Shown here one piece after another: positions 16,416-29,262 of a stretch of DNA of 32,757 nucleotides. Below the pieces are notes generated by a model, which saw only the letters and a program-made list of their open reading frames with translations, searched no databases and was not told where the DNA came from. The stretch is taken from contig JASHRM010000127.1 in assembly GCA_030037315.1 (NCBI GenBank), positions 1 to 32,757 of the forward strand, in the 5' to 3' direction. How positions within the stretch are numbered: the first letter of the stretch is position 1; every line of letters starts with the position of its first letter. The DNA is from Candidatus Acidiferrales bacterium (lineage in GTDB: Bacteria > Acidobacteriota > Terriglobia > Acidiferrales > UBA7541). The position numbers were made by a program, and so were the translations under genes.

Positions 16416-18200
16416 TTGTTGAAAAATATCTCTGCTGAAACCGCGAAGACGGCCGCTGCATCCGGAGCCGCCCGGAAGGATTGTTTTCTCGATTCATTCG
16501 ATCCCATTCATGAAGGCCACGTAGTGCAGTTCTATACAGATGACGCGGTACTCATCGATGGATTGGCGCGATTCATTGGCGGAGCTTTGCGAGAGGGCAA
16601 TGGCGCCATCGTAATCGCGACGCTGGCACATCGGGAAAAGCTGAGAGCCGCGCTGACAAAGCGCGGCATTCCGCTAGCCCAGCGGATTGAAGAAGGCCGG
16701 TTCAGAGATCTGGATGCAGCTGACACCCTGTCGATGATTACAGTCGATGGGCGCCCCAACGCGACCCTGTTCACATCGGTAATGAATCAGGCGGTCGATC
16801 AGATTCGCGCAAAGAGCGCAAACCCCGCGCAACCGGTTGCGGGCTTCGGCGAGATGGTCGCGCTGCTGTGGGGCGCGGGCAAGATCGAAGCGGCGATTCG
16901 GCTCGAGCAGTTGTGGAACGATTTCGCGCTAGAGAACCGTATTGCGCTGCGATGTGCGTATCCCATGATCCATTTCGATAGGGAGCGCGATACGGAGATG
17001 TACCTGAAGGCTTGTGCCGAACATTCAGCCGTGATCCCGAGCCAGAGGCACGATCGAATGGGCGCGGCTCCTGAGGGAACTCAAGGTGGGGGCGCCAGGG
17101 GTCGCCAGGATTTACACGAGTTTGAGGCAGAGGCGGCTCTGCACCAAAGTGAAGAGCGTTTCCGGCTCTTCGTCGATAACGTGCAGGACTACGCGATTTT
17201 CATGCTGGACACGGAAGGACGAGTGGACAGTTGGAACGCCGGAGCGGAGAGGATCAAGGGCTATAAGGCCTCGGAAATAATTGGAAAGCATTTTTCCTGC
17301 TTCTATCCTCCGGAAGAGATTGCGGCCGGCAAACCGCAAAGGGATCTGGAAATCGCGGCGCAGCACGGCCGCTACGAGGATGAAGGATGGCGCGTGCGCG
17401 GAGACGGCACACGCTTTTACGCGAGCCTGATTTTAACCGCGGTGAAGGACAGCGCGGGCCGGCTTCGCGGGTTCGGCAAGGTGACGCGCGATATTACGGA
17501 ACGGATTGACGTCGAGCGCAAGCTACGGCAGTCCGAGCACTCGTTGCGCAGACTGTCAGGACACCTGCTCCGGACGCAGGACGAAGAACGGCGCCGATTG
17601 GGGCGCGAACTGCACGACAGCGTTGGGCAGTATCTTGCCGCGTTGAAGATGGCCCTTAGCTCTTTGACGGTCGAAGACAACGAGAAAGTCGATGAGTGTT
17701 TGCGGCTGGCAGACCAGTCCATCGCGGAGATACGAACGATTTCCTATCTTTTGTATCCGCCCATGCTGGAAGAGTTGGGTCTGCGATCGGCGATACCCTG
17801 GTATCTGGAAGGCTTTTCGAAACGCAGCGGCATTCAAATCAAGCTGGATATTACTCCAGACTTTGAAAGGCTTTCCCGCGATTCCGAACTGGCGCTCTTC
17901 AGAATTTTGCAGGAAAGTTTGACAAACGTCCATAGACACTCGGGAAGCAAGACGGCGGAAATTCGGCTGAGCCGAACGCAAGAAGCTGTTTTCCTTGAAG
18001 TGATCGATCAAGGCAAAGGCATGCCGGTTGAGGCATTGAGCCAAACTCAGAGCGATAGCGGCGCTTTCGGCGTGGGGCTTCGCGGAATGACCGAGCGCAT
18101 GCGCCAATTAGAGGGCGACTTGGAAATCACATCTTCGAATGCGGGAACCAAAGTGCGGGCCACGCTTCCGGTAAAGCAGCGCACTGCAGACGGGGACTGA
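16416..18200 (+). CDS. MEDS-PAS sensor histidine kinase (NarX/DesK-type)
   Basis: This is a 594-residue soluble hybrid sensor. Residues about 33-200 form a MEDS domain (starts HVVQFYTDDAVLIDGLARF), the input module first described in DcmR and methanogen sensors. Residues about 246-362 form a PAS domain ending in KVTRDITER. A short coiled linker leads to a HisKA_3 domain with phosphoacceptor His400 in GRELHDSVGQ, then an HATPase_c domain (about 490-590) with LQESLTNVHRHS, DQGKGM and GVGLRGM boxes. No transmembrane segment is evident, so it senses a cytoplasmic cue. The best available start is TTG at 16416 with AGGA upstream; this start is uncertain. The partner receiver gene lies 86 bp downstream. 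Confidence 0.92.
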   Translation: MLKNISAETAKTAAASGAARKDCFLDSFDPIHEGHVVQFYTDDAVLIDGLARFIGGALREGNGAIVIATLAHREKLRAALTKRGIPLAQRIEEGRFRDLDAADTLSMITVDGRPNATLFTSVMNQAVDQIRAKSANPAQPVAGFGEMVALLWGAGKIEAAIRLEQLWNDFALENRIALRCAYPMIHFDRERDTEMYLKACAEHSAVIPSQRHDRMGAAPEGTQGGGARGRQDLHEFEAEAALHQSEERFRLFVDNVQDYAIFMLDTEGRVDSWNAGAERIKGYKASEIIGKHFSCFYPPEEIAAGKPQRDLEIAAQHGRYEDEGWRVRGDGTRFYASLILTAVKDSAGRLRGFGKVTRDITERIDVERKLRQSEHSLRRLSGHLLRTQDEERRRLGRELHDSVGQYLAALKMALSSLTVEDNEKVDECLRLADQSIAEIRTISYLLYPPMLEELGLRSAIPWYLEGFSKRSGIQIKLDITPDFERLSRDSELALFRILQESLTNVHRHSGSKTAEIRLSRTQEAVFLEVIDQGKGMPVEALSQTQSDSGAFGVGLRGMTERMRQLEGDLEITSSNAGTKVRATLPVKQRTADGD

Positions 18201-18286
18201 AGGTTTATAAATCGGCGAGGGTTTGTGTTGAAGTCATTGGTTCGAGCAGCCCCTCCTGATATTTGTAGTTTATGTGTGGAGAGGCT

Positions 18287-18715
18287 ATGGCTTTATCTCC
18301 CAGAATTCTAATTGTTGACGACCATGAGGTAGTGCGCCAGGGCGTGCGCACGATCGTGCAAAAGTCGCGCCCCGAATGGCAAGTCATCGGCGAAGCAGTA
18401 AACGGAATCGAGGCCATCGAAGCGGCGAAGCTGCACGATCCGGACATCATTATTCTGGATATAACGATGCCCGTGATGAGCGGTCTCGAAGCCGCTTCGC
18501 ACATCACCAAGCTGGGCAATCATTCGTCGATTCTGATCTTCACCATGCACGAATCCGAGCGCTTGATGGCCGAGGTGCGCGAGGTGGGCGCCCAGGGCAT
18601 CGTCCACAAGTCCAAAGCGGGTCGCGATCTGATTCTCGCGATTGACACGCTGCTCGGCGGTGGGACTTTCTTCGGCGGCCCCCTAAAACCGATCATATCC
18701 GGCGGCGGAAAATAG
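18287..18715 (+). CDS. single-domain response regulator, NarL-type receiver without HTH
   Basis: ATG at 18287 behind GGAGAGG gives 142 residues; an upstream in-frame ATG at 18272 is less likely. The receiver is intact: acidic Asp11/Asp12, phosphoacceptor Asp58 (IIILDITMP), Thr86 and Lys108 (IVHKSKAG). The sequence is closest to NarL/LuxR-type receivers, but it ends after a Gly-rich tail (LLGGGTFFGG...) where the linker to the LuxR helix-turn-helix would begin. No HTH remnant is seen downstream in any frame. It is probably phosphorylated by the kinase encoded upstream and acts through protein contacts. Confidence 0.9.
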   Translation: MALSPRILIVDDHEVVRQGVRTIVQKSRPEWQVIGEAVNGIEAIEAAKLHDPDIIILDITMPVMSGLEAASHITKLGNHSSILIFTMHESERLMAEVREVGAQGIVHKSKAGRDLILAIDTLLGGGTFFGGPLKPIISGGGK

Positions 18716-23015: not shown

Positions 23016-23264
23016 TCGCGATTTACCGAATGCAAGTATTACTTCTAGGATATGGGTGAATCACGGCGGGTCATTTTGCCGCGAGGATTGGCCGATAAGC
23101 AATAGCGAATACCCGCGTTGCAAGCGGCCAACTGTTCGGAGTGGAAATTTTCGTAGGTCAGGTTACACTCATGGCCCGGGAAATCCCTAGAAGAGCGAGT
23201 TTGCCGGCGCGCGCAGGCGTGCGGGCGCAGGTCTGTATTACAAACGCATAGACGGCGGAAAACC

Positions 23265-24101
23265 TTGACGAAACGAATCCTTGTGGCGGATGACGACCCG
23301 ACGACTCGGAATTGGATCGCCGGGATTTTGCGCGGTCAGAAATTCAAGGTTGAAACGGCTGCGAACGGCAGCATCGCCTGGAAGAAGATTCAAAAATCGA
23401 GATTCGACTTGGTGCTTCTGGACGTTTGGATGCCGCGCATGAACGGGCTCGACCTGCTGGCCGCGATGCGCAACGGCAAGAAGCAGCCGAAAGTAATCGT
23501 GGTGACTTCCGACGAGTCGCCATCTACTTTGCTTGCCGCCATCCGCGAGCACGCCCACAAATATCTGCACAAACCCATCGAGCGAGAGGCTCTGGTCGGC
23601 GCAGTGAACGAATTGCTTGGAAAGAAGACCCGAGTCGCTTCGATCAAAGTGATTTCCGCCCGGCCGGAATGGGTCGAGCTGCTCGTGCCTTGTTCGCTGG
23701 AGGCCGGGGAGCGGCTGGAAGGATTCCTGGCGCAACTCGATACTGGTTTGCCCGAGGACGTTCGCGGCGCGGTGGGCCACGCGTTCCATGAGTTGCTGAT
23801 GAACGCGATCGAGTGGGGCGGAAAATTGAACCCGAGGCGAAAGGTCCGGATTTCCTTTTTGCGGGCAAAGCGAATGCTGCTTTACCGCATCGCCGATCCT
23901 GGGCCCGGATTCAAGTTCGCAGAACTCGATCACGCCGCGATCTCGAACAGTCTGGATGAGCCGACGAAACATGGCGAAGTAAGAGAGAAAAAGGGCTTGC
24001 GTCCCGGCGGTTTCGGGCTGGTGATGGTGAAAGCAAACGTCGATGATCTGATTTACAACGAAGCGCAGAACGAAGTCGTGTTCGTCAAATACCTCGATTA
24101 A
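23265..24101 (+). CDS. receiver domain fused to RsbW-like HATPase
   Basis: This is a 278-residue two-domain signalling protein. Residues 1-120 are an intact CheY-like receiver: Asp10/Asp11, phosphoacceptor Asp53 (VLLDVWMP), Thr81 and Lys103 (LHKP). Residues about 125-278 resemble the HATPase_c_2 domain of RsbW/SpoIIAB-type serine kinases, with N-box HELLMNAIEWGG (175-186), G1 box DPGPGF (211-216) and lid/G2 GLRPGGFGL (244-252). There is no His-phosphorylation domain. The start is TTG at 23265 behind GGCGGAA. The layout suggests a phosphorylation-controlled anti-sigma or protein-serine kinase. No sigma factor or STAS antagonist gene is nearby. Confidence 0.9.
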   Translation: MTKRILVADDDPTTRNWIAGILRGQKFKVETAANGSIAWKKIQKSRFDLVLLDVWMPRMNGLDLLAAMRNGKKQPKVIVVTSDESPSTLLAAIREHAHKYLHKPIEREALVGAVNELLGKKTRVASIKVISARPEWVELLVPCSLEAGERLEGFLAQLDTGLPEDVRGAVGHAFHELLMNAIEWGGKLNPRRKVRISFLRAKRMLLYRIADPGPGFKFAELDHAAISNSLDEPTKHGEVREKKGLRPGGFGLVMVKANVDDLIYNEAQNEVVFVKYLD

Positions 24102-24246
24102 TCTGCACGAATTCAACGCTTCTTGGATGGTACGTTCGTGCCATTGCTCCACCCTGATCAAGCTGGCAATTTTGGATCGACGGCGACAGGTCGAAGTCTG
24201 CCCGGACCGCAGATCCGCTGGCGCAGGCTTTGACCGGGTGTTGTTG

Positions 24247-24648
24247 ATGATTCCGGGGCTCATTTTTGCGGGTTTTATCGCGGGCTTGGCGCAGTTCTTT
24301 TTCTATTGTCATACCGCCCTCATCTCCGCGCGCGATGTAGAAGTGTCGGCCGCTGTGCTCGGCCTCGCAAGCCTGGAAAATGAACGCCCACGAGCCGAGG
24401 ATTTTGGCCGTCTGTTGCAGCTTGTTGGTCTCTGCCCGGATTTCCGTATTCACCGCATGGAAATCCGAGCGGTCCAGGACTACTACAATGTGCTGCGCGG
24501 CCTCAACGCTGTTACGCGGCGTTTTGCCCCGAGCGTTTCCGACTGGACCGAACGCGAGCGCGCGGACTGCTCTCATTTCGCGGCAGTCATACTCGAAAGG
24601 CGAATCACCTACAGCCGCGCGATAGCGGCCCAACGAGTGAGCGATTGA
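24247..24648 (+). CDS. small one-TM protein of unknown function
   Basis: The frame is open from 24127, but the first 40 codons look non-coding. The ATG at 24247 gives a 133-residue protein beginning with a transmembrane helix (MIPGLIFAGFIAGLAQFFFY). A soluble domain follows, with VSAAVLGLAS, DFGRLLQLVGLCP and EIRAVQDYYNVLRGL. The codon pattern and the orderly sequence support a real gene, and I believe similar one-TM proteins occur in Acidobacteria. Function is unknown. The ribosome-binding site is weak (GGGTG). It lies 145 bp after the receiver-HATPase gene and 66 bp before tilS. Confidence 0.6.
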   Translation: MIPGLIFAGFIAGLAQFFFYCHTALISARDVEVSAAVLGLASLENERPRAEDFGRLLQLVGLCPDFRIHRMEIRAVQDYYNVLRGLNAVTRRFAPSVSDWTERERADCSHFAAVILERRITYSRAIAAQRVSD

Positions 24649-26373: not shown

Positions 26374-28314
<1,941 letters not shown>

Positions 28315-29262
28315 GACGGCTCGCAGGGCTTGCGAATGCAGACCATCGCTCCTGCGCGATGCCCCGCGGAATAATCGGACGGCAAGGCTGAGTTCGTCAT
28401 CAAAATCACGGGAACGTGCCGGAGGCGATGGCTCTTTTTCACCGCTGTGCAGAGATCTTTGCCTGAAACGCCTTCGTCCTCAGCCTCCGCGAGTAAAACG
28501 TCCGGCGTATCCGTTTGCAGAATGTCGAGCGCTTGCTGCGCTGTGGTGACGAGCACCACCTGGTAGCCACCCTGCTCCAAGAGCGCGCGAGTCGCGTCGG
28601 CCAAAGCTGGATCGGATTCCACGCCGAGAACTTTTATGCGGCCGGCGTCCTGCGGATTTGCAAGGTCGGCTTTTACGGACGCTTGCTCAAATTGAATGGC
28701 TACTTCACAGCGAAAATCCGGCATCAGGATGTTGCGGACGCCCTTCGCTCTGCGCGCCAAATTGATTGCGTTGGGCGCCGTCCAATACGGGAACGTGACG
28801 TCCAGAGGTTGTCCAATCCAGTAGCCGCCGCGCGATGTGGATATCACAAGGCCGCCGCGCGAGGCGTCGACTGTTTTGCCGACGTCTTCAAATGCGTCGA
28901 GCGTGCCAACGCCGCCGCGAATGTGGACGCGTCCGACAATCTTGGCGCGAAAGCGAGTGCGCCGGTCGGCTCCGGAACTGATTGGATGCTTCGAGCCGTT
29001 TCCGTTAGAAATTTTGGCGGTCGTTGACAATTAGCCCTCAGTTATTCCGCGATTTGCAGCAAACGGCCTCACACGCGCGCCCCAAGAGCACACGTCCCCC
29101 GGGCTCTTAGGCGGCTTTTCTATACGGCGCACATCGGCATTTCCGTGAAATCCTTTAGGACTTAAACGGGGCGCAACAGCTGCGTTGTAAGCCGAAGCTT
29201 CGAAAGAAGTTGCGGGGATGCAGAAGAATCAGTGTCACAGATCTTTACACCAAACACGCCAC

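Follow-up and report, generated by a model that had tools for sequence, protein, structure and literature searches.

Response regulators whose output is an RsbW-type ATPase have been described before. The layout of a receiver (REC) domain followed by RsbW is credited to a 2006 response-regulator census in PMC12826045, whose authors also retrieved 100 proteins of this layout with CDART. Their subject, TciR of the betaproteobacterium Vogesella indigofera, regulates indigoidine, is encoded with the sensor kinase TciK, lies genetically downstream of it (tciR and tciK), and operates in a strain described as having no RsbV homologue (PMC12826045, 2025). LvrC of Leptospira interrogans (LIC11110) was matched to the kinase LvrB by phosphotransfer profiling, phosphorylated in vitro by LvrB and crystallised, and its authors propose that it is a receiver-regulated anti-sigma factor (PMC13269768, PDB 9QIH, 2026). 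For PDB 9QIH, the sequence file calls the chain SenB, although the title of the entry reads response regulator LvrC. HsbR, CrsR and SypE (Pseudomonas, Shewanella and Vibrio) are likewise response regulators that include a kinase or anti-sigma domain of the RsbW type; HsbR, of REC-PP2C-kinase layout, takes its input from the Hpt protein HptB and in turn phosphorylates HsbA, a STAS-type antagonist (PMC6482189). Finally, RsbW and SpoIIAB of Bacillus are stand-alone proteins that have no receiver and are encoded with a STAS antagonist and a sigma factor.

The protein described here is encoded in the window, by which we mean the whole analysed stretch of 32,757 nucleotides from a soil bacterium. 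Like LvrC, it has an N-terminal REC domain and a C-terminal Bergerat ATPase of the RsbW/SpoIIAB type and lacks both PP2C and HisKA; the two proteins are only about 20% identical, but LvrC is the structure that fits its full-length model best. The kinases linked to the acidobacterial relatives are hybrids ending in Hpt, whereas the LvrC kinase, LvrB, is a histidine kinase under REC control, and the target proposed for LvrC is a sigma factor. TciR, compared by its description, shares the REC-RsbW layout with the acidobacterial family and an adjacent sensor kinase gene with part of it. In contrast to HsbR, CrsR and SypE, the window protein has no additional PP2C domain, and its ATPase half resembles RsbW and SpoIIAB in fold, and in the N, G1 and G2 boxes with their N-box Glu and Asn, and has a possible counterpart of SpoIIAB Arg20. 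We therefore assign it as an LvrC/TciR-type response regulator, and an orphaned one. A reading of this DNA from sequence alone had implied that a single chain uniting two-component with partner-switching control was new, but TciR and LvrC precede it; what is new is the acidobacterial family, its probable Hpt-type phosphorelay, a recurrent linkage to STAS genes and a pseudo-receiver branch.

Domain make-up and fold of the window protein

The fusion gene (23265-24101, + strand) begins with TTG, contains no internal stop and encodes 278 amino acids. Its receiver spans residues 5-114 (23277-23606, +; Pfam PF00072, 2.8e-29) and carries the acidic pair D10 and D11, the phospho-acceptor D53, the switch residue T81 and K103. 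The ATPase spans residues 151-275 (23715-24089, +; HATPase_c_2, PF13581, 9.6e-14), with an N box at E176/N180, a G1 box at D211/G213/G215 and a G2 box at G248/G251. Between them, a linker and first hairpin (residues 127-142, 'IKVISARPEWVELLVP'; 23643-23690, +) forms a conserved signature that bridges both halves. Both Pfam matches exceed their curated cut-offs; the ordinary HATPase_c family, at 0.0039, falls under its own, and no match to HisKA, HisKA_3 or SpoIIE (PP2C) was found in the protein up to E = 1. Since a single continuous REC-ATPase frame recurs in relatives across Acidobacteriota, we regard this as a conserved gene and not a chance open reading frame. An antisense frame of 341 amino acids (23238-24263) was rejected as coding; nothing supports it, and we read it as a shadow of the gene on the opposite strand. 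Just 3′ of the fusion lies a small gene (24127-24648, +) with an N-terminal hydrophobic stretch and no Pfam match, and a similar small gene adjoins the fusion in three close relatives. Elsewhere in the window, a MEDS-PAS-HisKA_3 histidine kinase (16416-18715, +) followed by a receiver-only protein of 147 amino acids makes up a separate two-component pair, and the C-terminal part of a PilZ-receiver fusion frame (27999-29030, −) runs antisense to the 3′ end of ftsH, an overlap that possibly reflects a frameshift or an assembly error.

The residues expected of a working receiver and ATPase are conserved. D10, D11, D53, T81 and K103, as well as E176, N180, D211, G213, G215, G248 and G251, are invariant in 25/25 orthologues, and E176, N180, D211, G215, G248 and G251 remain so over 96 distinct loci. 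The linker/hairpin signature is nearly as constant (W136 in 96/96, S131 in 93/96, I127 in 92/95). Arg20 of SpoIIAB is a residue that contacts the partner. Opposite it, in an HMM alignment to 1tid/1til/1th8, lies R150 (23712-23714, +), which is Arg in 88/96 loci; against RsbW, its placement is ambiguous by 2 residues. One N-box position, His in SpoIIAB, is Trp in the window protein, so that kinase activity is not assured.

Searched as a profile against solved structures, the ATPase half retrieved RsbW (6m36, 3.2e-7), LvrC and SpoIIAB (about 1e-5), with histidine kinases at 0.04 or worse. An AlphaFold model of the full-length protein (pLDDT 87) places strands 128-133 and 136-142 in a hairpin, and Foldseek ranks LvrC first against it (E 6e-18). 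All matches listed by VIA-align for this model were receiver domains (Z up to 23), and the ATPase half was therefore modelled on its own (pLDDT 79) for fold comparison. The isolated half matched 12 RsbW-class or related entries (among them RsbW, SpoIIAB, UsfX, SiaB and LvrC) at Z 8.1-9.8, and histidine-kinase ATPase domains at Z 6.0 or less. Altogether, sequence profiles and predicted fold agree in classing the window protein as a response regulator, with an output of the RsbW/SpoIIAB type, and not as a histidine kinase. This is what the sequence-only reading had proposed, including the direct junction of the two domains, the intact Asp53, Thr81, Lys103 and ATP-binding boxes, and the missing HisKA-type dimerisation domain; placement in the HisKA-linked HATPase_c family, which it had named as the outcome to look for against it, is not what the comparisons give.

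Linked kinases and the orphan clade

Relatives of the fusion occur in many genomes of the order. In the GTDB collection, the best 80 of 255 relatives belong almost wholly to Acidobacteriota (Terriglobia, Vicinamibacteria and Blastocatellia), the others among these 80 being two records labelled Eisenbacteria and one labelled Latescibacteria. An adjacent kinase gene is usual for the LvrC/TciR type without defining it, and within the family one lies no more than 600 nt from the fusion in 41/96 loci, with a 4-nt overlap in 12. Five linked kinases that were sampled are hybrids of the order HisKA-HATPase-REC(-REC)-Hpt, four of them with a GAF/PAS sensor part. Hpt domains occur in 33/86 immediate upstream neighbours and 6/92 downstream neighbours; one SpoIIE domain was found among the 86 upstream neighbours. 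Since the linked kinases usually end in Hpt, a phosphorelay probably feeds the acidobacterial fusion family, and gene order and domain order suggest that the usual route would be a four-step phosphorelay ending on Asp53. In four loci (L076, L077, L083 and L085), an OmpA-domain protein, an Hpt-ending hybrid kinase and the REC-RsbW gene form a cluster, joined in L076 and L077 by a Ras-like small GTPase and in L076, L077 and L083 by a coiled-coil-like protein; this cluster looks like a GTPase-linked signalling unit.

No kinase gene lies beside the window copy. Together with five relatives it forms a supported clade (97) in which 0/6 copies have a linked kinase, whereas its sister clade is kinase-linked in 5/5. 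The sensor half of the sister-clade kinase has no match in the window genome, which is 83% complete. Either the kinase was lost from or separated from this clade, or it was gained in the sister clade. With no linked kinase in the window genome, the donor to Asp53 must act in trans. One possible donor, by its architecture, is a stand-alone REC-Hpt protein on contig C314 (2080-2940 of locus L219), which shares 41% identity with the tail of REC-RsbW-linked kinases in relatives and adjoins a LytS/LytT-like pair. As the home of the lost kinase itself, C314 was rejected, for it holds this REC-Hpt protein and not the kinase; likewise, no kinase frame was found in the first 4 kb of contig C44.

STAS linkage and the Asp53-less branch

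As the sequence-only reading had noted, the surroundings of the gene offer no partner: no STAS or SpoIIE (PP2C) gene is present on the window contig, nor any SigB/F/G-type match. The window genome (3.68 Mb) does hold 9 STAS domains, about 10 SpoIIE-type PP2C domains and, on contig C105, a separate stand-alone RsbV-RsbW pair. That reading had left the target open and had called for a search of relatives for co-occurring STAS or sigma genes. In relatives, the search came out positive for STAS and negative for sigma. The fusion has a STAS gene no more than 1.5 kb away in 11/96 loci, about 17-fold over the window genome's rate: 11 STAS matches fall in the 263 kb near the fusion, where about 0.6 would be expected at 9 per 3.68 Mb, versus 3 in the 606 kb farther out. 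Most relatives have no STAS neighbour. Where one is present its position varies: 5′ with a 4-nt overlap and a DSGG site in L178, directly upstream in L092 and L096, directly downstream in L189 and L162, and as an RsbW-RsbV pair downstream of the fusion in L161 and L173. On the tree, STAS linkage requires 8 changes and is thus not one inherited cluster, but the linked loci belong to only about six lineages. Sigma-like genes, in a rough control with a profile of three sigma-like proteins, are not enriched (1 near, 2 far), and no SigB/F/G-type sigma factor exceeds the cut-off in the window genome. Taken together, this gene content makes a STAS protein a better candidate than a sigma factor for the direct partner of the acidobacterial family and, by extension, a putative direct target for the window protein. 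However, TciR functions in a strain reported to have no homologue of RsbV, so STAS proteins cannot be the universal target of the LvrC/TciR type.

The same genome encodes a full-length paralogue on contig C250 (11958-12923 of locus L080), 33% identical to the window protein, in which Asp53 is replaced by Ser. In this paralogue and 13 copies related to it, position 53 is Ser or Gly and every ATP-site residue is kept; many Asp53-less copies also lack a second acidic residue. A linked kinase is present in 0/16 loci without Asp53, a contrast that is statistically weak because these loci are essentially one clade and one evolutionary event. L092 and L096, with their directly upstream STAS genes, are among the Asp53-less copies. 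Because the ATP-site residues stay in these apparent pseudo-receivers, they suggest a role for the ATPase output that is independent of Asp53 phosphorylation.

Proposed mechanism and alternative explanations

We think it rather probable that this LvrC/TciR-type regulator carries a two-component signal into a partner-switching circuit, an account built on the domain make-up, intact residues and fold class of the protein, on the kinase and STAS genes linked to its relatives, and on the phosphorylation of LvrC by LvrB and the place of tciR downstream of tciK. A phosphoryl group would reach Asp53, in relatives usually from the C-terminal Hpt of the neighbouring hybrid sensor kinase and in the window genome from a donor in trans. 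The phosphorylated receiver would then rearrange and, depending on the direction of the effect, free or re-pair the RsbW-type ATPase half. That half would in turn bind and/or phosphorylate its putative partner, a small RsbV-like STAS protein, the latter on a conserved serine.

A rather unlikely alternative is that the ATPase half is a direct anti-sigma factor, gated by phosphorylation, that sequesters a sigma factor with no involvement of STAS. This is what the LvrC authors put forward for their protein (PMC13269768); it agrees with the alignment of the widely kept R150 to SpoIIAB Arg20 and with the statement that the TciR host has no RsbV homologue (PMC12826045), but it has to contend with a window genome devoid of SigB/F/G-type matches over cut-off and with a family beside which STAS genes, and not sigma-like genes, are enriched. 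Doubts of another kind come from the orphan status of the window copy, which might be a relic that has drifted since the loss of its kinase and retains little function. The kinase-free clade with its wholly kinase-linked sister, and the sensor half left unmatched in the window genome, would be expected of such a relic; however, all six orphan copies keep every active-site residue of receiver and ATPase, and the window copy is 75% identical to its nearest copy over 277 columns. Free drift would not keep such identity together with intact sites, and we consider a relic improbable. It is more improbable still, to the point of being hardly tenable, that the ATPase half is the CA domain of an ordinary histidine kinase and the protein a degenerate hybrid kinase. 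A shared Bergerat fold and the weak HATPase_c match lend this idea what support it has, but the far stronger HATPase_c_2 match, the missing HisKA, the PDB profile matches to RsbW, SpoIIAB and LvrC and the Z comparisons refute an ordinary CA domain.

Returning to the phosphorelay-fed partner switch, the acidobacterial STAS genes found overlapping the fusion or immediately next to it provide a short list of candidate partners for LvrC/TciR-type proteins, and the same loci contain natural controls in the Asp53-less paralogues and in the copies with no linked kinase. If the STAS target is true, REC-RsbW proteins would be phosphorelay-switched STAS kinases and not plain anti-sigma factors. We can also speculate, with considerable doubt, that a two-tier switch is widespread in Acidobacteriota, in which phosphorelay-fed REC-RsbW proteins with Asp53 and Hpt-tailed kinases, and paralogues that cannot be phosphorylated at position 53 for want of the Asp, would both act on STAS proteins, with no SigB-type sigma factor dedicated to the switch. 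In that event, the pseudo-receivers would either provide a baseline that does not depend on phosphorylation or be competitors for one and the same STAS partner.
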